NCBI RefSeq assembly: GCF_000178955.2
Contig: NC_016631.1
Location: 5,208,001 to 5,272,000, forward strand
From: Granulicella mallensis MP5ACTX8
GTDB taxonomy: Bacteria > Acidobacteriota > Terriglobia > Terriglobales > Acidobacteriaceae
Direction: 5' to 3'
Length of the DNA: 64,000 nucleotides
Shown here: positions 4,608 to 16,170 of the stretch, in pieces
Numbering within the stretch: the stretch's first letter is position 1
Layout: each line of letters starts with the position of its first letter
Program-made: the position numbers and the translations under genes
Notes under the pieces: model-generated
What the model saw: only the letters and a program-made list of their open reading frames with translations
What the model was told of the DNA's origin: nothing
The model's database searches: none

Positions 4608-6572
4608 ATGCCGATCAAGGCTTACTACAACGAACCCATATCTAGCTTCTTAAAGGATGACGCTAACCGCATCCTCGGTATTCTGACGGCGGAACATCAT
4701 CATGCCTTGGAGGAACAACAACGTTGGGCTTGGCTGCAACAAATTTCGATCCTCGAAGCTGCCCTCACCGACCAACAGGATGGAAGAATCTTTCTAGAGT
4801 TCTACATTCCAAGAATGGGCAAGCGCGCAGATGCTTTGTTGATAGCGAAAAACATCGTTTTCGTGATCGAGTTCAAAGCAGGAGCAAGCGAACATACGTC
4901 AACAGCCTTTGATCAAGTGGAAGATTACGCTCTCGATCTAAAAAACTTTCACGAAGGCAGCCATCGTGTTCCAATCGTTCCGGTACTTGTCTCAACCAAT
5001 GCTGAATCTCGCCCCATATCTGAACTCAAATTTGCCGATGACCTCGTCGCTTCACCTGTCGGGACAAACAAGGCCGATTTAAGTTCTCTCATTCATAAGA
5101 TTTGTGCTGAGTACATCTTTCCAACGCTTGATATTGACGTGTGGATGGCTAAGGGCTACAGGCCAACACCAACTATCGTTGAGGCAGCAGAGATCCTCTA
5201 TCGCACCCATAGTGTGACTGACATCTCGCGATCGGATGCTGGCGCGAAGAATCTGCAGGAGACGAGTGCCAGTGTCAGCAAAATTATTGATCAAGCTCGT
5301 CAGAACCGTACTAAATCCATTTGTTTCGTGACTGGCGTCCCCGGCTCGGGCAAGACGCTAGCCGGATTGAATATCGCAACACGGCGCTCAGACGAACATC
5401 GTGACGAGCACGCCGTTTTTCTGTCTGGCAATGGCCCACTTGTTGATGTTCTTCGAGAGGCACTTATACGTGACAGAGCTACGCGTGAGCATATTCCGAA
5501 AAAGACAGCAGAACGCGAGGTACGCAGCTTTATCCAAAATATTCATCACTTTCGAGATGATTACGTTGGCAATAATGATATCCCCGTTGAAAAGGTCGTT
5601 GTCTTCGACGAAGCGCAACGAGCGTGGACCCGCAAACAGGCGGCCAGTTTCATGCAGAGAAAGCGAGGACAGGCTGATTTCAATATGTCAGAGCCGGAGT
5701 TCCTCATCAGTGTTATGGATCGACATCCAGACTGGTGTGCCGTCGTGTGCCTTGTTGGAGGCGGTCAGGAGATCAATATAGGAGAGGCTGGCATATCAGA
5801 GTGGATCAGTGCAATTGAAACCCTATTTCCCACTTGGGAGGTCCATGTCTCGCCGCGTATAGCGCTTCCAGAGTACGGTTCCCCAATAGAGATAGAGAAG
5901 TTTCTTGCGTCGCCACGAGTTCGCGTAGACGAACACCTTCATCTTGCCGTTTCGATGCGGTCGTTCCGAGCAGAAGCGCTGTCAGATTTGGTCGGTCACA
6001 TCATAGATAATGAGCCAGAATCTGCGAGAGCCGCATTCAAACGTATAGAGACGGTCTATCCCATCTACTTGACCAGGAATCTCGATGTCGCAAAAACTTG
6101 GTTGCGGAGTCAGGCCCGAGGGACGGAACGCTTCGGACTAGTTGCATCCTCAGGGGCCCAACGTCTCCGGCCCGAAGGGATACACATAAAAACAGAGATT
6201 GAGCCGGCAAATTGGTTTTTGAATGGCAGCACAGATGTCCGATCCTCGTATTACCTAGAGGATGTGGCAAGCGAGTTTGCGGTCCAGGGTCTTGAATTAG
6301 ATTGGGTTGGTGTGTGCTGGGATGGAGACTTCCACCACAAGAATGAAACCTGGGTCTGTCAGAACTTCAAAGGTACAAAATGGCAATCCGTTAATGACGA
6401 GTCCAGGCGACTTTACCTAAAGAATGCTTATCGCGTGGTTTTGACGAGAGCTCGGCAGGGGATGATCCTTTTTATTCCAAAAGGCGATATATCTGACCCC
6501 ACGCGCCCTCCGTCTTTTTACGACGGTACATTTGATTATCTTCGTTCGTGTGGGATTAACACCCTCGATTAA
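4608..6572 (+). CDS. PD-(D/E)XK nuclease plus DUF2075/Schlafen-like helicase
   Basis: A 654-residue cytoplasmic protein combining a nuclease-like N-terminus with an SF1-like ATPase. Residues about 55-130 show a PD-(D/E)XK pattern: D75 in KRADALL, then E88-F-K90 in VFVIEFKAG. The ATPase has Walker A GVPGSGKT (243-250), Walker B VVVFDEAQ (D334, E335), a LVGGGQEIN motif, AVQGLELDWVGV, and the motif-VI-like YRVVLTRARQG near the C-terminus. This order matches proteins named DUF2075 or Schlafen group 3-like DNA/RNA helicase. Base composition and codon use are visibly more AT-rich than in the neighbours, and the gene stands alone between hairpins, which suggests horizontal transfer. The start has AAGGA five bases upstream. 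A role in phage defence or nucleic-acid processing is inference. Confidence 0.82.
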   Translation: MPIKAYYNEPISSFLKDDANRILGILTAEHHHALEEQQRWAWLQQISILEAALTDQQDGRIFLEFYIPRMGKRADALLIAKNIVFVIEFKAGASEHTSTAFDQVEDYALDLKNFHEGSHRVPIVPVLVSTNAESRPISELKFADDLVASPVGTNKADLSSLIHKICAEYIFPTLDIDVWMAKGYRPTPTIVEAAEILYRTHSVTDISRSDAGAKNLQETSASVSKIIDQARQNRTKSICFVTGVPGSGKTLAGLNIATRRSDEHRDEHAVFLSGNGPLVDVLREALIRDRATREHIPKKTAEREVRSFIQNIHHFRDDYVGNNDIPVEKVVVFDEAQRAWTRKQAASFMQRKRGQADFNMSEPEFLISVMDRHPDWCAVVCLVGGGQEINIGEAGISEWISAIETLFPTWEVHVSPRIALPEYGSPIEIEKFLASPRVRVDEHLHLAVSMRSFRAEALSDLVGHIIDNEPESARAAFKRIETVYPIYLTRNLDVAKTWLRSQARGTERFGLVASSGAQRLRPEGIHIKTEIEPANWFLNGSTDVRSSYYLEDVASEFAVQGLELDWVGVCWDGDFHHKNETWVCQNFKGTKWQSVNDESRRLYLKNAYRVVLTRARQGMILFIPKGDISDPTRPPSFYDGTFDYLRSCGINTLD

Positions 6573-6710
6573 ACGACAATTTCCCATAGAACCGTTCTAT
6601 CTGTAAACAACAATGGATAGATAGTGGCGAAGACAGAGCATTTACACCAAACATCATGCCTTCATTTACTCTTTTGTGAAGGCAGAGCAATATTAGGTTC
6701 CTATAGAAAC

Positions 6711-8682: not shown

Positions 8683-9909
8683 TTAGAGCTGTGATGTTGT
8701 CGTGGCATTGAACTTCATGCCGACGGTTGACTCCAGGTTTCCGATGGCACTGTCGATCACGGCGAAGATTGTTGCACGGTTGCTGGCATTACTGAGGTCG
8801 AGCGAGGCGCTGCTTGAAACACCATGTTGCGATAGCGCGGAGTTGAATGCGGTCTGCGCCTGCGCGGCAGTGAAGAACTGTGCCGCGCTGGTGCCATTCG
8901 AATGAGCCAGCGTCTGGAACACATCAGAGAAAACACCTTCCAGCGTGCTTACACCAAAGATGATGTGATTGGTGGGTGTGACCACTGTGGATGGGCTCGT
9001 GGTCGGAACCGGATTGTCGTACATCTGATCCAGGTAGTAGTGGACCTGGTAAGGATACTGCGCATAGGTGTTCGAATTTCCCCAGACAGAACTATACGAG
9101 TTCACCGATGCCACCGTTGACTCCGTCGCGGTTGCGCCTTCGGTACTGTATTGGGGGACCAGGGTACCGTAGTATCCCTGGTTATAGGCGGCGTTGAGGA
9201 TCACGTCGAGGAAGCTGTTCGGTAAGGTGACGAAGTTGGCCAGCGCTTCGTCGTACTCCGGCTCCCAGGGAGTCGTCCAACCGTACTGGCCTTTGCCGGT
9301 CACGTTCAACGCCACCATATCGTTATAGTGGAAGAACGCCGGCAGCATGGGGCCGTAGTACTTATTGTTGAACGATGGCGGCGTTACCTTCGAATACTGA
9401 GTCGCGGCATTAGCCATGGCGTAGCCAATATTCTTCTGGACTGCGATGTAATTGATGAGCGAGTGACCAGCAGGAGTGTAGCTGCCTGCGACCAGGTCCA
9501 CAGCATAGTTATTGATCTGATAAGGACCGCCCTGGCCTTCATCCATCACGGCCTGCTGATCTGACGAGGGGTCGATGAGGCTGCTGCTGGACTCGTAGTC
9601 TTCAGTGGCGATGTTCTGCTGCAAAAGCTGCGCCATGATAGATCCATACAGATAGTCCTTATTGAATTGAATGCCTGGAACGGCTGCATATTCCTGAACC
9701 AGATGGCCATACATTACGCCTGCGATCATGTTCGACATGATGAGGTCCGTATAGTTCCCTCCGTTCAGGGTTAAAGTCTCTTCCGCGCTGCCATCACCCA
9801 GCAGAAGGTGGAAGCCAATCGTGCCGGTAGTGGTTTGCGCTGAAGCTGCGGCGGTCGTGGTGAGGAAAAGGACCACGGTGGAAAGTGACATGGCAAGTTT
9901 GCATCTCAT
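8683..9909 (-). CDS. exported protein of unknown function
   Basis: 408 residues from an ATG at 9909 that has AAGGAGG eight bases upstream; a longer frame reaches 9990 but lacks a ribosome site. Residues 1-24 are a classical signal peptide ending in ASA-Q. I do not recognise the family. The mature protein is rich in Tyr, Asn, Gln and Ser; it has a DEGQGGPYQINNY segment at 123-135, where a Glu followed by GGPYQIN recalls the catalytic neighbourhood of some lysozyme-like proteins, but this is too short for a call. Two helical stretches near the C-terminus are Ala-rich. It lies upstream of the GH79 gene in the same direction with a hairpin between, so the two are probably separately transcribed. 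Confidence 0.75.
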   Translation of the reverse strand: MRCKLAMSLSTVVLFLTTTAAASAQTTTGTIGFHLLLGDGSAEETLTLNGGNYTDLIMSNMIAGVMYGHLVQEYAAVPGIQFNKDYLYGSIMAQLLQQNIATEDYESSSSLIDPSSDQQAVMDEGQGGPYQINNYAVDLVAGSYTPAGHSLINYIAVQKNIGYAMANAATQYSKVTPPSFNNKYYGPMLPAFFHYNDMVALNVTGKGQYGWTTPWEPEYDEALANFVTLPNSFLDVILNAAYNQGYYGTLVPQYSTEGATATESTVASVNSYSSVWGNSNTYAQYPYQVHYYLDQMYDNPVPTTSPSTVVTPTNHIIFGVSTLEGVFSDVFQTLAHSNGTSAAQFFTAAQAQTAFNSALSQHGVSSSASLDLSNASNRATIFAVIDSAIGNLESTVGMKFNATTTSQL

Positions 9910-10250
9910 CGAAGAATCCTCCTTGCAGATTTTTGGATCAGGGGCAGGTTCTGTACATCCTTTGCGCTTCTCCTCAGTACAAGCATGCATAGCGACTTCG
10001 GAGAGAACGAAAGACTTTTACAGCAGGAGTGGTGAGTGAAAGTGATGATGAGGTGGAATCTTAACACGTCAAATGAGCCTTTAGCCGTGTTTCAGAAAAC
10101 TTTTTTTTGAATCCTAAATAAGAAACATCAAGAGGAGCCACCACCAAAAAGCACAGATCCTTTCGCAAAGGACTGAGGACCAAGGGCAAACGGTTGTAAC
10201 CCCGGTGTGCCTTTTCGCGTCAGATGTGCAGCTTCAAAGAGGTGATAGGC
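9910..10250. other. divergent intergenic region
   Basis: 341 bases between the minus-strand exported protein and the plus-strand DUF1223 gene. It must carry both promoters. An A/T-rich segment at 10085-10130 with a run of eight Ts is present. No operator repeat or small gene stands out. Confidence 0.45.
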
Positions 10251-11027
10251 ATGGTACGGCTCATTCTTGGCATCGCAATGGTTCTGTTTTCGAACGTCGT
10301 CCTGCTGTCGGCACAGGGAACGGCATCGGCTGACACGGCGTCCCGGCCAAAGGTCATACTCGTAGAACTCTTCACCTCGGAAGGCTGTTCGAGCTGCCCG
10401 CCCGCGGACAATCTGCTCCGTGCGATCAACGGAACTCAACCCAGCGCAGGCCAGATCATCGTCGGGATCAGTGAACACGTTACCTACTGGAACTCGCTCG
10501 GGTGGTCCGATCCGTTCTCCTCGGACCTCTATACAGACCGGCAGAACAGGTATGGCTCGAGGTTCGGGCTCGATAGTGTGTACACCCCGCAGATGGTCGT
10601 AAACGGCACGGAGCAGTTTGTCGGCAGCGACCAAAGCAGCCTCGCAAGCGCCATCCGCAAGGAGCAGAATCGTACAGATCCGGTGGATCTGCGCATTCTT
10701 TCTGCAAACCGTTTGGGCGGTGCGCTGATGGTGGACTTCTCCGCAAAGGGCGATGCCTCGCTCCAGGGCTCAGAGATCTTTGCCGTTCTTACCGACGATG
10801 CCGATCAATCGATCGTGCCTCGCGGCGAGAACTCCGGCCGTACCTTGTCGCATGTTGCCGTGGCGCGCACGCTTCTGCGTGTGGCCAAGCTACAGGAAGC
10901 GCCACAACAGACCGTGCAGATTGCCTTGCCGACCTCGTTCCATGGGATGACGGGGCATCATCTCATCCTGTTTGCCCAGGCACCGGGAAGCGGCAAAGTA
11001 CTCGGCGCTGATTCTAAGCCACTTTGA
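10251..11027 (+). CDS. DUF1223 thioredoxin-like secreted protein
   Basis: 258 residues from ATG 10251, which has GAGG eight bases upstream and opens a signal peptide (hydrophobic 3-20, cleavage near SAQG); a longer frame from 10224 is unlikely. The family signature is clear: VILVELFTSEGCSSCPPAD with C46-x-x-C49, followed by SEHVTYWNSLGWSDPFSS, the YGSRFGLDSVYTPQMVVNG segment and FVGSD, as in DUF1223 proteins, which adopt a thioredoxin-like fold. The CSSC pair suggests thiol or metal chemistry in the periplasm, but no member activity is established to my knowledge. It stands 75 bases before an exported peptidase gene on the same strand. Confidence 0.88.
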   Translation: MVRLILGIAMVLFSNVVLLSAQGTASADTASRPKVILVELFTSEGCSSCPPADNLLRAINGTQPSAGQIIVGISEHVTYWNSLGWSDPFSSDLYTDRQNRYGSRFGLDSVYTPQMVVNGTEQFVGSDQSSLASAIRKEQNRTDPVDLRILSANRLGGALMVDFSAKGDASLQGSEIFAVLTDDADQSIVPRGENSGRTLSHVAVARTLLRVAKLQEAPQQTVQIALPTSFHGMTGHHLILFAQAPGSGKVLGADSKPL

Positions 11028-11102
11028 GGTGGCAATTGACCTTGTGCCGGCTGTAGTGGAATCCTTGCGACATCCGCCGCTATACGCCGGTAGAGACAGA
11101 GG

Positions 11103-12089
11103 ATGTTTGTGACATTCAGGATCTTGCGAACGGCACGAGCTCTCGGTCTTTTGTGGGTCATGGCAATGTCCATTGGCAATTCTGACGCGCTAGGCAATGG
11201 CCCTCATCAGCCGGCGATCGCGTTCTCACAGTCTCTGGCTGTCGGCAGCGCAACACTGCAAATTGATTTCTCCGACGGCCCGCTCGACCTGCCGCGGAGT
11301 GAAATCGTTCAGCGCATTCAGACCGCAGCCCAGGCAGTAGCCACCTACTATGGCCGCTTCCCTGCCCCACGCACTCGCATCCTTGTCATCCCTGTAGCGG
11401 GTCAGCATGGTGTACTGCAGGGAACGACCTGGGGCAACAGGTCAGGCTTTTCAGCCTTTCTGCGTCTTCGCATCGGCCAATCGACAACCCGCGAGGAGCT
11501 TGCCTCCGACTGGGTCATTACCCATGAACTCGTTCACACGGCTCTGCCGTCGTTGCCGGACGATCAGCACTGGCTCGAAGAAGGGATCGCCAGCTATGTC
11601 GAACCTATCGCCCGCGTGCAGGCCGGCCAACTTTCCGCTACCCGAATCTGGGCCGACATGATGCAGGGTATGCCCAACGGAGAACCCGAGCCGCATGATC
11701 GAGGACTCGACGTAACCCATACCTGGGGTCGAACCTACTGGGGCGGAGCTATGTTCTGCCTTATGGCCGATGTTGAGATCCGCAAACAGACCGGCAACCG
11801 GCGTGGATTGCAAGATGCTCTACGCGCCATCGTCGCTGCCGGAGGTTCTATCGACAAGGAGTGGCCGCTGCCGCATGTTCTCGACATTGGCGATCAGGCT
11901 ACAGGCACCCACGTGCTGGAGCAGATGTACGCCCGGTGGAGTGTAACCCCGGTTCCCGTCGATCTTCCCCAGCTTTGGACCCAGCTTGGCGTCCGTTCCA
12001 CTACCCATGGCGTTACCTTCGATGCCTCAGCTCCGCTGGCTGCCATCCGAGATGCCATCACCACCCATTTGCCACCTAAGTCCTTATAA
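11103..12089 (+). CDS. exported HExxH metallopeptidase (gluzincin-like)
   Basis: 328 residues with an N-terminal hydrophobic export signal (about 8-30). The zinc site is visible: HELVH at 141-145 with catalytic E142, and WLEEGIASY at 157-164, whose E160 would be the third ligand as in M1-like gluzincins. The protein is much shorter than aminopeptidase N and lacks its GAMEN exopeptidase motif, so it may be an endopeptidase or a degenerate relative. The start is uncertain: the ATG at 11103 directly touches AGAGG, while an in-frame GTG at 11109 sits six bases behind it and is equally plausible. It follows the DUF1223 gene and precedes the bufferin-type cluster by about 250 bases; cotranscription is not proven. 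Confidence 0.8.
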   Translation: MFVTFRILRTARALGLLWVMAMSIGNSDALGNGPHQPAIAFSQSLAVGSATLQIDFSDGPLDLPRSEIVQRIQTAAQAVATYYGRFPAPRTRILVIPVAGQHGVLQGTTWGNRSGFSAFLRLRIGQSTTREELASDWVITHELVHTALPSLPDDQHWLEEGIASYVEPIARVQAGQLSATRIWADMMQGMPNGEPEPHDRGLDVTHTWGRTYWGGAMFCLMADVEIRKQTGNRRGLQDALRAIVAAGGSIDKEWPLPHVLDIGDQATGTHVLEQMYARWSVTPVPVDLPQLWTQLGVRSTTHGVTFDASAPLAAIRDAITTHLPPKSL

Positions 12090-12340
12090 ATGAGAATCAT
12101 AGGGCGGAACTCCCAGGGGTAGATTTTCCACGCACTCAAGGCTTGCTGAAAAAATAAACCCTGTAACCTATTTCGTATTCCGTACTCCAACGTGCAGTAT
12201 GGATACGCGACGATTAAGCTTCGACGCTGGCAATCCATTCGGCTCGTCATCGCGTTCTGTCAGTACGGCAGTTTTTTGCGTTTCTTTATTAACGTCCTGT
12301 GCACATCGTGCGCGGCCCAACCCATAGAAAGGTTCCTCTC

Positions 12341-12613
12341 ATGAAGAACTCCACAAAGTCGCTTGCTCTGGCCGCTGCAGTTGCCGGCCTCCTCGGTGGC
12401 ACCTCCGTTCGTATGAATGCGCAGCCGACCTCCGCAACCACCTCCGTTTCGGCCGGCGTTCTCCTCGCGCAGACCACCCCCGACCCCACCAAGCATTCCT
12501 GCAAGGGCAAGAATGACTGCAAGGGTCAGGGTGGCGGCAAGCACCCCGGCAAGAACTCCTGCAAGGGTAAGGGTGATTGCGCAACCGACGGTTCCAAGGG
12601 ACCCAAGGCCTAG
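12341..12613 (+). CDS. bufA: bufferin-type RiPP precursor, Cys-rich (BufA2-like)
   Basis: 90-residue exported peptide. Residues 1-27 are a signal peptide (ending RMNA). The mature part is short and ends in a Lys/Gly/Cys-rich tail with four cysteines, C54, C60, C74 and C80, in two copies of SCKGK[N/G]DC separated by KGQGGGKHPGKN. This matches precursors of the bufferin family, in which an MNIO enzyme with its partner converts Cys to thiooxazole and the product binds copper; the CKG repeats resemble the BufA2 subgroup (from memory, not searched). The start is chosen for AAAGG eight bases upstream; a longer frame to 12299 has none. The maturase gene begins 81 bases later, after a hairpin. Confidence 0.82.
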   Translation: MKNSTKSLALAAAVAGLLGGTSVRMNAQPTSATTSVSAGVLLAQTTPDPTKHSCKGKNDCKGQGGGKHPGKNSCKGKGDCATDGSKGPKA

Positions 12614-12631
12614 TTTTTCTCCTATATCCGG

Positions 12632-12657
12632 GGGCCTGAAGGATCTCCTTCAGGCCC
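12632..12657 (+). terminator. attenuator-like hairpin between precursor and maturase
   Basis: Perfect 11-bp stem GGGCCTGAAGG (12632-12642) / CCTTCAGGCCC (12647-12657) with a 4-base loop, 18 bases after the precursor stop, followed by only a weak T run (TGTTCCCTTT). Such a leaky terminator would give more precursor than enzyme transcript, as is usual in RiPP operons. Partial read-through is inference. Confidence 0.65.
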
Positions 12658-12694
12658 TGTTCCCTTTCAGGCCTCATAGCACCAGGAGTATGCA

Positions 12695-13579
12695 ATGCCA
12701 GCCAATCGGTTTAATGGGTTCACAGATTATGGGGTAGGAATTGGCTTGCGGGTGCCGCACTACGATCACATTTTCTCCGAGAAGCCTGTCGTCGACTGGT
12801 TCGAGATCATCTCTGAGAACTACATGGTGGATGGAGGCAGACCTCTCAAGGTGCTCGACCAGATCCTGGAGCAGTATCGCGTCGTTCAGCACGGTGTCTC
12901 CATGTATTTCGGCTCCGCCCAGGCACTGGATCGCGAACACCTCAAACGGCTGAAGGAGCTGACCAAGCGCACCAAAACACCGTGGCTCTCCGATCATCTT
13001 TGCTGGGGCAGCGTGGATGGCCGCTATACCCACGACCTGCTTCCTCTGCCGTACACGTTCGAAGCCGTACGCAACACCGCGGCGCGCATTCGCGAGGTGC
13101 AGGACTTCCTCGAGATCCCCATCGCCGTAGAGAACGTCAGCAGCTACGCCGAGTTCCACGAGTCGCAAATGACCGAGTGGGAGTTTCTGAACGAGGTGGT
13201 TCATGCCGCCGACTGCGGCATCCTGCTCGATGTGAATAACATCTACGTGTCGTCGCAGAACCACAACTTCGACCCCATGGAGTACGTGAACGCCGTCGCT
13301 GCCGACCGCGTGGCGCAGATCCACATCGCCGGCCACTCGAAGTTCGAGAAGTACACGCTCGATACCCACGACCACCCCGTGCTCGATCCCGTGTGGCGCA
13401 TGTACGCCCGCGCCATCGAACGCGTTGGAGTAACCGCCACGCTGCTGGAGTGGGACGATAACATTCCTTCGTTCGACGAAGTCCATAACGAAGCCCTGAA
13501 GGCAAACCTCTATCTCAACGAGCAGCAGACGCCTCCTGCGGCGCTGCCTGAGATGCAGCGTGACGAGGTCCGTGCATGA
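12695..13579 (+). CDS. bufB: DUF692 multinuclear iron oxidase (bufferin maturase)
   Basis: 294 residues of the DUF692/MNIO family (MbnB and TglH relatives), TIM-barrel enzymes that use two or three irons and oxygen to modify cysteines of RiPP precursors. Conserved features: GIGLRVPHYDHI near the start, DWFEIISENYM (34-43), QHGVSMYFGS (H66), WLSDHLCWG (D100, H101), VENVSSY (E146, N147), LLDVNNIYV (D179, N181), QIHIAGHS (H210, H214), THDHPV (D226) and LLEWDDNIP (E252). Together these supply the expected His/Asp/Glu/Asn metal ligands. An AGGAG site precedes the ATG. The stop overlaps the next start by four bases, which indicates translational coupling with the DUF2063 partner. Confidence 0.93.
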   Translation: MPANRFNGFTDYGVGIGLRVPHYDHIFSEKPVVDWFEIISENYMVDGGRPLKVLDQILEQYRVVQHGVSMYFGSAQALDREHLKRLKELTKRTKTPWLSDHLCWGSVDGRYTHDLLPLPYTFEAVRNTAARIREVQDFLEIPIAVENVSSYAEFHESQMTEWEFLNEVVHAADCGILLDVNNIYVSSQNHNFDPMEYVNAVAADRVAQIHIAGHSKFEKYTLDTHDHPVLDPVWRMYARAIERVGVTATLLEWDDNIPSFDEVHNEALKANLYLNEQQTPPAALPEMQRDEVRA

Positions 13580-14472
13580 ACCTGCTCGAACTCCAGCGGC
13601 GCATGTCAGAGGATGTTCGGCGGCCTCTGACGGAAGACTTCGAGATGCAGCAGAAGCTCGAAGACGGCCGCTCCATGAGCGAGCTTGCAGCAAGCTACGT
13701 CAAGCCGAACGACCGCCTGACCTCATTTGAGCGCCTCGAGATCTACAACCGGCAATACTGGTTCCGCGTCATTGGTGCAGTCTCGGAGGACTTCCCTGCG
13801 CTCGCAGCCGTGCTGGGAACCAAGCGCTTCGATGCGATGGTGCTCGCTTATCTCAAAGAGAATCCCTCCACCTCCTTCACGTTGCGGAACCTGGGCGGGC
13901 GGCTACCTCTCTGGCTGCAGGAGCATCCGGAGGTCTCGCCGCGACGGCATGTGCTGCTGCTCGATATCGCACGATTGGAGTGGGCGTACGTCGAGAGCTT
14001 CGACCGCGCGGCCGTCGCGCCACTGACGCAGGAAGACTTCGCAGGACTCGATGGCGACTCCAAACTCTGGCTCCAGCCACATCTGCAACTCCTCGACCTT
14101 CAATATCCGGTCGACGAACTGGTTCTGGCTGTGCACAAGGAGACGCCGGAGTCTGACATCATGAGCAACGCCGTCATGGAGCGAAAGCAGACCTCCAGAC
14201 TGCGGCTGCCGGGCTTGCGGCGTGCAAGAACGTATCTCGCCGTCCATCGCTTCGATAACTCGGTCTACTATCGCCGCATCGAACGCGAGGCCTACCTTCT
14301 TCTCTCAGCGTTGCAAAGACATCAAACGCTTGAAGCGGCCATCGAAACGGCTTTTACGGGCAGCAAGCTGAAGCCTGAAGAGCAGGCGGGGAAGATTCAG
14401 CAGTGCTTTGCACACGCAGCAGAGCTTGGCTGGTTCTGCCAACAGCCGCCGGACTATATAGGCCTGCAGTGA
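13576..14472 (+). CDS. bufC: DUF2063 partner protein of the MNIO maturase
   Basis: 298 residues. The N-terminal half (1-100) is the DUF2063/putative DNA-binding domain type: LLELQRRMSEDVRRPLTEDFEM, then LTSFERLEIYNRQYWFRVIGAVSEDFPALAAVLG and FTLRNLGGRLPLWLQ. The C-terminal half resembles the MbnC-like domain that binds the precursor and complexes with the MNIO enzyme. Overlap of ATGA (13576-13579) with the upstream gene shows coupling. In characterised bufferin systems BufB and BufC act together; the role here is inferred from order and family. It is the last gene of the cluster: a convergent gene ends 40 bases downstream. Confidence 0.9.
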   Translation: MNLLELQRRMSEDVRRPLTEDFEMQQKLEDGRSMSELAASYVKPNDRLTSFERLEIYNRQYWFRVIGAVSEDFPALAAVLGTKRFDAMVLAYLKENPSTSFTLRNLGGRLPLWLQEHPEVSPRRHVLLLDIARLEWAYVESFDRAAVAPLTQEDFAGLDGDSKLWLQPHLQLLDLQYPVDELVLAVHKETPESDIMSNAVMERKQTSRLRLPGLRRARTYLAVHRFDNSVYYRRIEREAYLLLSALQRHQTLEAAIETAFTGSKLKPEEQAGKIQQCFAHAAELGWFCQQPPDYIGLQ

Positions 14473-14511
14473 AGCTTGGCTGGCGTCTGCCCGTGCTACC
14501 GCTGTAACCGT

Positions 14512-15111
14512 TCAGGAAGGCCGAAGTTCCGGTCCGGCAGGATGCCATTGGCGGACCAGTGGTCCCCCTGGTCCGCTCACCGGATCGGAGGCAGGAAAAG
14601 CAACCGTCTTCATCCGCTCGGAGCTTGATGCGTCGGGCGCCTTGCGGCAGATATCCCACACCTCACCAGGAGGGTACGCCCCGATCACGAGGAAGTCGGG
14701 ACTGGCCTCAAGACGGCAGTGCCCTGTGCCTGCGGGGAGCACCGCGACATCCCCTGCCTTGACGACCAGTTCGTGCCCGCCTTCTCCGCCAAGCACCAAT
14801 CGGCACCATCCCCCGGCGAAGCCAAGCACCTCATGCGCCGTGGAGTGGTAGTGGTGGAAGTCGTACACTCCGTTCCTCCACTGCGGCGGCCAGCCGTTCC
14901 GCAAGAACGCAGCCTCCATCGCGGAAGCCATGTCCACTCCACCTGCCGCGAAGACACCCCGATAGAGCAACACCGGCAGATGCTCGTTGTTAGGCATCCA
15001 CCCATTCTTTGAGAGGTGCAAGCTCTCTGGAACAGTCTCCGAGGCGAAGGCAGGAGTTCCCATTCCAACGCCAGCCGCCGCCAGCAACGTGTTGAACTGT
15101 CGTCTGTCCAT
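14512..15111 (-). CDS. cupin-domain protein with Tat-like signal
   Basis: 199 residues with a [15 protein letters not shown]-terminus, a twin-Arg-like export signal. The cupin core is intact: motif 1 [16 protein letters not shown] and motif 2 [16 protein letters not shown], giving the His/Glu set for one metal. The region [18 protein letters not shown] before the core resembles the YjlB-type cupins (COG4297), whose function is not known. GGGAG lies six bases before the ATG. It is convergent with the bufferin operon and separated from the next minus-strand gene by 84 bases. Confidence 0.82.
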
Positions 15112-15195
15112 GCTGTTCTCCCTTCTTCTCCAGAGAGTACACCGCCTGTCGATCGCCAGGCTTCATTGTCCGGAGACTATCGAGAGAGCTGCTGT

Positions 15196-16170
15196 TCATA
15201 CCGTCGAACGGCTCAACTGTCCCTTCTTCATCTCTTTGTCCAGATGCTTAGAGATGCTCTTTGCGATGGCATGCACCACGTTCAAGCTGTCGGAATCCCG
15301 GCGATTGCTCTTCTTCAGATTCGTATCAATCACAGTCTCTCCATGCCGATCAACGAGTTTCACCTCAAACGCAATCTTTGTGGTGCCAAGGAACATTCCC
15401 AGTGGCCCGGTAGAGGCGCGTAATGCCTGATTTCCCTTTTGGAAGTTCACTACAGCCACTTGCAAGGTGAAGGCCGTGCAACCTGGTCCGGCTGCGATAT
15501 CGCCAGCGCGGAAGTAGGTCTGCGAGGTTTGTGTACGACGCAATTCCGTGAGGAGGTGCTCGTAGAAGAGCACTCGATACTCAGCGGGTATCTCCATTCC
15601 ATGGATATCGATAGGCTCAACGAGAATCGTATCCGGTTTTACTCCAGCAACCGAACAGGTTTGCGGCTGAACCGCAGCAAGCGGGGCTGTTTCAGCAAGG
15701 ATTTTTTTCTGTAGCTCCGCCGCTTGCTTCGTGGGCAATTCAAAGATAGCTCCGTGGTACCCCTCATGCTCATCGCGATACTCCACGGTGAGAAGATCGA
15801 CTGATTTCTGCGAGAATGCCCCCAGGGCTGCGCCTCCTCCATAGGGAATTACTTTGCGAGCGATCTGACCCGTGGTTCCTCCCTTTTCCGCCCTCTCATC
15901 TCCCGTGAAGACCGCCGTGATTCGATTGGTGGCAATGAGCGCACGAACATCGGTGTTGCTGAACATGAGCGCATCGGGCGTCAGGCTCAAATCGCCCTTC
16001 GTGTTGGACTTAACGTCCGGCAGCCCCGCCAGATGAATAACGCCAGCCGTGTTCGAGGAAACCACACCAGCCACTTCCGGAGACTGTGCGCTTCCGATAG
16101 TCGGTACTGACATGCAGAGGGATAACGACAGCCAAACACCGGCTCTTTTGAAATATTGCAAAAGGAACAT
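15196..16170 (-). CDS. exported protein of unknown function
   Basis: 324 residues with a signal peptide (about 10-28, ending GSAQ). I do not recognise a characterised family. The N-terminal third (about 30-110) is beta-rich and ends in a Gly-rich segment ARKVIPYGGGAALGAF; the C-terminal third contains GPGCTAFTLQVAVVNFQKGNQ and FEVKLVDRHGETVIDTNLKK followed by an amphipathic helix with many Lys. This resembles uncharacterised DUF4410-like periplasmic proteins only loosely. The ATG at 16170 touches GAAAGG, and an in-frame TTG at 16161 would be better spaced, so the start is uncertain. It is transcribed divergently from the two-component system and shares its upstream region. Confidence 0.7.
   Translation of the reverse strand: MFLLQYFKRAGVWLSLSLCMSVPTIGSAQSPEVAGVVSSNTAGVIHLAGLPDVKSNTKGDLSLTPDALMFSNTDVRALIATNRITAVFTGDERAEKGGTTGQIARKVIPYGGGAALGAFSQKSVDLLTVEYRDEHEGYHGAIFELPTKQAAELQKKILAETAPLAAVQPQTCSVAGVKPDTILVEPIDIHGMEIPAEYRVLFYEHLLTELRRTQTSQTYFRAGDIAAGPGCTAFTLQVAVVNFQKGNQALRASTGPLGMFLGTTKIAFEVKLVDRHGETVIDTNLKKSNRRDSDSLNVVHAIAKSISKHLDKEMKKGQLSRSTV

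Follow-up and report, generated by a model that had tools for sequence, protein, structure and literature searches.

The window analyzed here is a 64,000-nucleotide stretch of the genome of the acidobacterium Granulicella mallensis MP5ACTX8 (contig NC_016631.1, positions 5,208,001 to 5,272,000). Our subject is a group of three genes on its forward strand, which an initial annotation had taken for a bufferin-type cluster, that is, one specifying a ribosomally synthesized and post-translationally modified peptide (RiPP). The first gene, a bufA-like frame (12341..12613; hereafter bufA), starts with ATG and encodes a precursor of 90 residues with four cysteines; it recurs in relatives, in which the signal-peptide-like N terminus, judged by eye rather than with a signal-peptide program, is also conserved. 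Just before it lies GAAAGG (12327..12332), a sequence resembling a ribosome-binding site and kept in relatives. It is followed by bufB (12695..13579), which encodes a 294-residue MNIO (MbnB/TglH/ChrH) enzyme with the motif LEWDDN, and by bufC (13576..14472), which encodes a 298-residue PME1-type partner composed of DUF2063 and a C-terminal part resembling a RiPP recognition element (RRE). The bufB stop is overlapped by bufC through ATGA (13576-13579), and all three frames lie where the initial annotation had placed them.

On sequence criteria, the locus is confirmed as a bufferin-type (captophorin) cassette of precursor, MNIO/BufB and DUF2063 partner. We consider it likely, taking the parts of the reading together, that the cassette belongs to the BufA2-related 'Cys-Lys' group, as a reduced variant derived from BufA2, and that it falls under a probable trans-acting regulon of an extracytoplasmic function (ECF) sigma factor. 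The cluster itself is of a known kind; the probable reduction to four cysteines and the probable ECF regulon in trans are the new variation. In a search of the literature, supplementary tables excepted, neither the four-Cys form of acidobacteria nor its sigma operon was found described, and the word 'acidobacteri' was not found in the accessible portions of PMC12452194 and PMC13097082.

Family assignment and conservation of the cassette

BufB matched PF05114 with 361 bits in a Pfam search of the window proteins, and is the single match to this family in its genome, which consists of one contig of 6,237,577 bases. The enzyme lies above the cut-off of the curated NCBIfam BufB model NF050167 (354.2 versus 310 bits) and below that of HvfB, NF003818 (263 versus 360 bits); a PDB sequence search retrieved 3bww (E 4.5e-50), and the MNIO residues are conserved. 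We compared 80 named loci, which are the best 80 matches obtained with the enzyme (81 loci when the window is counted). The residue after the catalytic aspartate is again aspartate in 75 of them (LEWDD), the minority motifs being LEWDA (3), LEWDQ (1) and LEWDN (1). The window enzyme thus has aspartate in place of the phenylalanine found in 3bww, and aspartate at that position is reported for Cys-Lys MNIOs in the available part of Gadgil et al. 2026 (PMC13097082).

BufC likewise exceeds the cut-off of its family model, DUF2063 (PF09836; 59.6 versus 27.2 bits), as the initial annotation had anticipated for both proteins, while its NGO1945_C domain scores 16.9 bits, under the cut-off of 27. A PDB search with the BufC sequence gave no match. 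An AlphaFold2 model built from a 12-row alignment reached a mean predicted local distance difference test (pLDDT) of 76.6 and a predicted template modelling score (pTM) of 0.72, with weak stretches at residues 9-25 and 191-206. When its fold was searched, the only PDB matches at E <= 0.001 were TglI (8hci, 8hi7) and NGO1945 (3dee), all at E <= 2.5e-5, and the RRE protein TbiB1 was matched only at E 0.5. The modelled fold is that expected of a PME1 partner, DUF2063 joined to an RRE fold.

The precursor matched no Pfam family at E <= 0.1, DUF2282 included. Its cysteines, at residues 54, 60, 74 and 80, lie in KHSCKGKNDCKGQGGGKHPGKNSCKGKGDCATDG; Lys-Gly follows three of the four and alanine the last, so that the peptide bears multiple Cys-Lys motifs. 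Against the BufA2 equivalog NF050166 it scores 27.5 bits for a cut-off of 60. Among relatives, the same model gives 61.8 bits for a 12-Cys precursor (L014), 39.2 for a six-Cys one (L013), 23.9 for a five-Cys one (L012), and 18.9 and 23.8 for two four-Cys ones (L005 and L010); four plasmid BufA2 from Pseudomonadota score 88-106 bits. Of the two families with which the initial annotation had proposed to align the precursor, BufA2 is related to it below threshold, and BufA1 gave no DUF2282 match. BufA2 proper was ruled out both by the model cut-off and by the six (or 12) conserved cysteines of that family, BufA1 by the missing DUF2282 match, and the EGKCG/oxazolin group by the absence of EGKCG repeats; the CxxxxC family of Antoine et al., compared by motif alone, does not fit the C-x5-C spacing. 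On these features we class the precursor as a variant derived from BufA2 rather than as a BufA2 itself.

The nearest of the best 80 loci belongs to G. mallensis X5P3, with an MNIO 99% identical to that of the window. A precursor lies upstream of the MNIO gene in 78 of the 80, the exceptions being L077 and L068, the latter with 414 upstream bases covered; the 78 include a frameshifted precursor, one at a distance of about 1 kb, one truncated where its contig stops and one with an unread base. The enzyme search of 61 genomes matched 16. These are 10 of the 28 genomes of the same genus, three more distant ones with a similar cassette (L012, L013, L014), and three whose paralogues are distant (26-32% identity, L015-L017) and lie in loci where no such precursor was seen. 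A precursor profile run on the 28 genus genomes, that of the window included, found the peptide in all 10 that have the MNIO and in none of the 18 that do not (Fisher p 7.6e-8). At the family level it matched 72 of 200 genomes; 71 of the 76 matches combine a core of the precursor type with a downstream MNIO. Purifying selection acts on the core, with a pN/pS-based dN/dS of 0.056 (210 pairs from 21 four-Cys loci, over 28 codons), and this, together with the co-occurrence in the genus, argues that the cassette is real beyond chance. The initial view of a bufferin-type MNIO/PME1 cassette with a conserved cysteine-bearing precursor beside its MNIO is thus borne out by the family models, the genus co-occurrence and the BufC fold.

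By their titles, 25 of the 80 loci come from Verrucomicrobiota, one being labelled Akkermansia (L091). The enzymes of Verrucomicrobiota-titled loci (L042-L045, L050, L053, L056, L057, L059, L060 and others) are 73-82% identical to the window BufB and come without a sigma operon, and this suggests either a transfer from one phylum to another or bins that carry the wrong label. Elsewhere (L157, genome G214), one MNIO gene is preceded by two tandem six-Cys precursor genes.

The cysteine series of the precursor core

The usual core in relatives, KH[SA]CKGxN[DS]CKGxGGC-x6-CKGKNSCKGKGGCATDG, has six cysteines arranged in two C-x5-C-x5-C triads; L031, from Edaphobacter aggregans, is one such six-Cys relative. 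This six-slot pattern fits 66 of 88 compared sequences, some of which come from one genome (the frameshifted L066 was left out here, and entered the tree described below as a three-Cys row). Among these 66, CKG is found at C2 in 63, at C5 in 63, at C1 in 57 and at C4 in 51, and glycine precedes C3 and C6 in 65. When aligned with them, the sequences of the Granulicella-type clade have glycine at C3 and a shortened C4 stretch, so that C1, C2, C5 and C6 remain; in the conserved core of the window precursor (residues 51-84; 12491..12592), their codons are at 12500, 12518, 12560 and 12578. The two SCKGK[N/G]DC units that the initial annotation had singled out correspond to positions 1 and 2 of triad 1 and to positions 2 and 3 of triad 2, and are therefore offset halves rather than copies of a repeat.

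The tree of MNIO rows (157 rows, 144 different proteins) includes 112 rows with six-Cys precursors, 26 with four, six with five, eight of other types and five unassigned. The four-Cys state requires three changes on it, and 24 of the 26 four-Cys rows form one group (SH-like approximate likelihood ratio test, SH-aLRT, 92). The six five-Cys rows, among them L012 and L037, lack only C4. From the wide distribution of the six-Cys form, the spacing it has in common with BufA2 and the existence of five-Cys forms devoid of C4, we infer that the four-Cys core is a six-Cys core that lost C3 and C4, a direction that the tree counts by themselves do not give. The acidobacterial series of three, four, five, six and 12 cysteines would then amount to a natural deletion series, able to indicate which cysteines are modified and which are structural, with the four-Cys form as its smallest two-diad version.

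Two genomes carry both forms. G229 has a four-Cys (L123) and a six-Cys (L144) cassette, and so has G168 (L126 and L146), where the four-Cys enzyme aligns only partly. Other core counts are 12 cysteines in L014, nine in L087, eight in L094 and L072, and three in L056 and L075, the triad being multiplied or single.

An unlinked sigma operon and a shared promoter motif

The initial annotation had noted that no ECF sigma or anti-sigma gene adjoins the cassette, and this is correct for the window over about 6 kb, as well as for its two nearest relatives (L021, L190). Its corollary that regulation may differ needs correction, since the pair is encoded elsewhere in the genome, behind a promoter motif in common with that of the precursor gene. 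The sigma/NrsF neighbor it had looked for stems from Buf1 clusters, and the accessible part of Antoine et al. (PMC12452194) reports sigma genes in Buf1 and none in Buf2 clusters. The acidobacterial loci contrast with that account, as here sigma genes accompany a Buf2-like group; two alphaproteobacterial plasmid BufA2 loci (L114, L116) also have a nearby sigma gene. We counted neighbors in 26 four-Cys loci, the window included, with flanks of up to about 6 kb (L197, the same stretch as L024, was left out). A zf-HC2 anti-sigma gene is present in 22, an ECF sigma gene in 20, a DoxX gene in 21, and all three in 19; in 17 of the 26, the anti-sigma gene lies upstream on the opposite strand. Pfam confirmed the domains of the L022 proteins (Sigma70_r2/r4_2, zf-HC2, DoxX). 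The loci without a nearby anti-sigma gene are the window, L021, L190 and L206. Sigma and anti-sigma genes also flank 20 of 46 other acidobacterial cassettes, and none of 25 from Verrucomicrobiota.

In the genome of the window, the corresponding DoxX-ECF sigma-anti-sigma operon is found at 1,779,724-1,781,089 (G000 contig 1), at 3.44 Mb from the cassette in contig coordinates, or about 2.8 Mb in the opposite direction should the chromosome be circular. The sigma gene (1,780,209-1,780,835) overlaps DoxX by ATGA, and the anti-sigma (1,780,826-1,781,089) has 87 residues and the motif HLEHCELC. A close anti-sigma (at least 65% identity) occurs in all 10 genus genomes with a bufferin cassette and in two of the 18 others (G016, G021; p 5e-6); a close DoxX occurs in nine of the 10, plus G021.

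Upstream of this operon, 25 loci carry TGTAAC(C)-N16/17-TCTAA(C), before DoxX in 23 cases and before sigma in two (L192, L219), and the copy in the window genome reads TGTAACC-N17-TCTAAC. A weight matrix derived from these 25 promoters picks out TGTAACCTATTTCGTATTCCGTACTCCAAC at 12162-12191, 179 bases before bufA, with a score of 23.4, inside the range of the training sites (23.0-30.7). Twenty shuffles of the bufA upstream region average 1.0 and reach 7.6 at most, and the second-best site on both strands of the window scores 10.6. This predicted ECF-type promoter consists of a -35 element TGTAACC (12162-12168), a 17-nucleotide spacer and a -10 element TCCAAC (12186-12191), and bufA transcription would probably start just after it. 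A genome-wide count of the strict pattern TGTAACC-N16-17-TCNAAC gave five sites (the sigma operon, bufA and three other places), against one for the reversed control. Between 40 and 260 bases before bufA, the coding strand carries TGTAAC in 21 of 25 four-Cys regions (opposite strand, 4 of 25) and in 45 of 87 other acidobacterial regions (opposite strand, 9 of 87). A background scan with the matrix omitted the copies of the window locus (L001, L002, L018, L020, L103) and retained other same-genome duplicates, so that most of its 35 'other' sites are bufA sites of duplicate loci.

These data suggest that an ECF sigma encoded far away probably switches on bufA. Transcription would require this sigma, whose gene lies elsewhere together with DoxX and the zf-HC2 anti-sigma, and the sigma would be freed when a metal or an oxidant hits the zinc finger of the anti-sigma. 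A precedent exists in the available part of PMC3511200, where two DUF2282-DUF692-DUF2063 operons of Caulobacter, of which one is not linked to sigF, are under the control of sigmaF (GTAACC-N16-CGAA). The zf-HC2 anti-sigma, which is soluble, and its ECF partner would thus constitute, with a readable promoter, a second and independent bufferin switch besides sigmaF-NrsF.

Several observations weigh against a BufA2-derived cassette under an ECF regulon in trans. The precursor remains below the BufA2 cut-off and has four cysteines rather than six or 12. The MNIO tree is a quick IQ-TREE reconstruction with no bootstrap, and two four-Cys rows fall outside its main group, L052 being a four-Cys form of its own, with another linker, and L128 a Granulicella-like core beside an outlying enzyme. 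Five of the 76 family-search matches lack a core of the precursor type, and three of these adjoin an MNIO (L184 with a shortened three-Cys core, L186 with a C-N-G variant, L188 with a frame that ends before the core). DoxX genes are a frequent, though not a universal, component of such clusters, but none lies within about 6 kb of the cassette, the unlinked copy being at 1.78 Mb. The promoter matrix was trained on sites chosen with the strict pattern, 62 of 132 regions upstream of bufA score no higher than their own shuffles, TGTAAC is found in none of 17 Verrucomicrobiota bufA regions, and the looser GTAAC-N15-18-TCTAAC is not enriched in the genome (five sites for 13 of the reversed control). 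AAC-type -35 elements are, moreover, common among ECF promoters. The shared promoter could on these grounds be a coincidence, with bufA transcribed by the housekeeping sigma or by another ECF, and the unmatched regions and the unenriched looser pattern speak for it. We find this unlikely in view of the gap between the bufA site and the next best one in 64 kb, of the rarity of the strict pattern, with the sigma operon and bufA accounting for two of its five occurrences in 6.24 Mb, and of the co-occurrence of bufABC with the close anti-sigma in the genus.

Three further observations concern the sigma operon. A second DoxX-like gene of the same genome is preceded by GTAACC-N17-TCTAAC (L221, 1,328,702-1,328,730), one of the five looser sites, and may belong to the same sigma regulon. 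In G021, where neither MNIO nor precursor was found, a DoxX-sigma-anti-sigma operon (L218) stands beside a broken HExxH gene and looks like a relic. In several loci (L022, L198 and L215, at 6160-6657 in the last), the anti-sigma gene and a gene for a small membrane protein are convergent.

Predicted product, related systems and recurrent neighbors

Extrapolating from characterized relatives, BufB, helped by its DUF2063-RRE partner BufC, would oxidize selected cysteines of the precursor in a four-electron reaction (-4 Da each), probably to 5-thiooxazole. The peptide would be exported by Sec and, once in the envelope, would buffer a thiophilic metal, copper or another. C2 and C5 are expected to be the best candidates for modification, since the family as a whole retains CKG at these two positions; C1 may also be modified, and C6, which is followed by alanine, is expected to stay a thiol or to form a disulfide. 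The initial annotation had proposed two modified pairs. The pairs exist, as C1-C2 and C5-C6 of a two-triad core, with lysine after only three of the four cysteines; all four cysteines may be modified, as then supposed. We also entertain, as a tentative and on the whole doubtful proposal, a minimal Buf2 that converged on the Buf1 layout. It would carry thiooxazoles at C2 and C5 and a C1-C6 disulfide (-10 Da), and would be the main effector of an acidobacterial ECF/zf-HC2 metal-sensing regulon, which most relatives encode beside the cassette and which would have become trans-acting in the G. mallensis lineage. If this were true, the natural cysteine series would show which Buf2 cysteines matter; the accessible part of Antoine et al. 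2025 (PMC12452194) describes the Buf2 modification as chemically unidentified.

One of the closest known systems is BufA2/Buf2 (NF050166; 'Buf_6/12Cys' in the part of Antoine et al. 2025, PMC12452194, that is available), which has the same A-B-C order, signal-like N terminus and CKG motifs. The first four spacings (x5, x5, x6, x5) of all four plasmid BufA2 compared are those of the acidobacterial six-Cys relatives, but the last cysteine follows C5 by x12 in the plasmid BufA2 and by x5 in the acidobacterial family; the window locus differs further by its four cysteines, its sub-threshold score and its unlinked DoxX and sigma genes. With the Cys-Lys captophorins, which the accessible text of Gadgil et al. 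2026 (PMC13097082) maps across Pseudomonadota, it has in common the MNIO-PME1 pair, the Cys-Lys motifs and aspartate at the site of FonB Phe250; it departs from them in that the symmetrical triads are reduced to two diads, and its own product chemistry is a prediction. Buf1 (DUF2282, PF10048) also combines four cysteines with an MNIO and DUF2063, and is known to be under ECF sigma control in Caulobacter, but the window precursor has no DUF2282 match and another cysteine spacing, and its enzyme has Asp-Asp where the two Buf1 enzymes compared have Asp-Gly and Asp-Gln. The predicted regulation resembles Caulobacter sigmaF-NrsF (PMC3511200, as far as accessible) in its GTAACC -35 element and in an ECF sigma acting on bufferin operons, one in trans; it differs in the -10 element (CGAA there, TCTAAC/TCCAAC here) and in having a small zf-HC2 anti-sigma where Caulobacter has NrsF, a membrane protein. 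The oxazolin/fontiphorin EGKCG group (HvfA, FonA) consists of exported MNIO-PME1 substrates, as the window precursor is predicted to be, but the latter is devoid of EGKCG repeats, and its enzyme passes the BufB model and not that of HvfB.

Acidobacteria are frequent in soils of low pH, in which dissolved metals reach high levels. Three other accounts of the product can be set against a modified, envelope-located copper buffer. The peptide might be an unmodified, metallothionein-like cysteine peptide, the MNIO pair acting on another substrate or being vestigial; its score under the cut-off of every model tried would fit, and four cysteines in C-x5-C pairs could bind a metal as they are. The joint presence or absence of precursor and MNIO in 28 of 28 genus genomes, the single PF05114 match in the genome and the conserved MNIO residues make this very improbable. 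That the cassette answers mainly to a non-copper stress (cadmium, chromate or thiol oxidation) sensed by the zf-HC2 anti-sigma we regard as rather unlikely. In its favor, the HLEHCELC of the anti-sigma has an Hx3Cx2C pattern, as in thiol-sensing anti-sigma factors. The sigmaF regulon of Caulobacter does respond to chromium and cadmium, according to the available part of PMC3511200, but the MNIO-PME1 products studied so far generally bind copper, as stated in the accessible parts of PMC13097082 and PMC12538549. Finally, the modified peptide might be cut by a peptidase-like neighbor with an HExxH motif (11103..12089, forward strand) and released as a small diffusible metallophore. Of the 81 loci, 16 have a homologue of this secreted-looking, metallopeptidase-like protein no more than about 4 kb from the cassette, and homologues occur in six of the 10 bufferin genomes of the genus versus one of the 18 others (p 0.003); four of the 10 have no homologue, however, and in three of the six the gene is on another contig or far away, so that we hold this account to be quite improbable.

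Between the predicted promoter and the ribosome-binding site, the leader contains an imperfect inverted repeat (12296..12315) of uncertain significance, which recurs, with some compensatory changes, in the majority of four-Cys leaders. In 17 of 25 aligned four-Cys leaders, the helix, named by hand, pairs in 87.1% of cells versus 79.1% in shuffles, a comparison that favors the helix, as the eight leaders where the repeat is invisible to the eye (L026, L052, L122-L126, L128) were left out. RNAalifold predicted no pair on the leader alignment, an Rfam search of window positions 9000-16000 gave no match, and folding z-scores (mean -0.36 for 25 four-Cys leaders) resemble those of regions upstream of long window frames (mean -0.26, n=32). 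A conserved RNA element was therefore rejected as insufficiently supported.

The HExxH protein matched no Pfam family over its cut-off; HExxH...E homologues are repeatedly found next to bufABC, or next to its DoxX gene, in loci of Acidobacteriota and of Verrucomicrobiota. Further upstream, a DUF1223 protein with a CSSC motif (10224..11027, forward strand; PF06764, 199.8 bits) is a recurrent neighbor in the four-Cys clade. Either protein could act on the peptide or on its thiols, and both are at most putative members of the cassette. DUF1223 genes lie near 13 of the 26 four-Cys cassettes, and are present in nine of the 10 bufferin genomes of the genus versus three of the 18 others.

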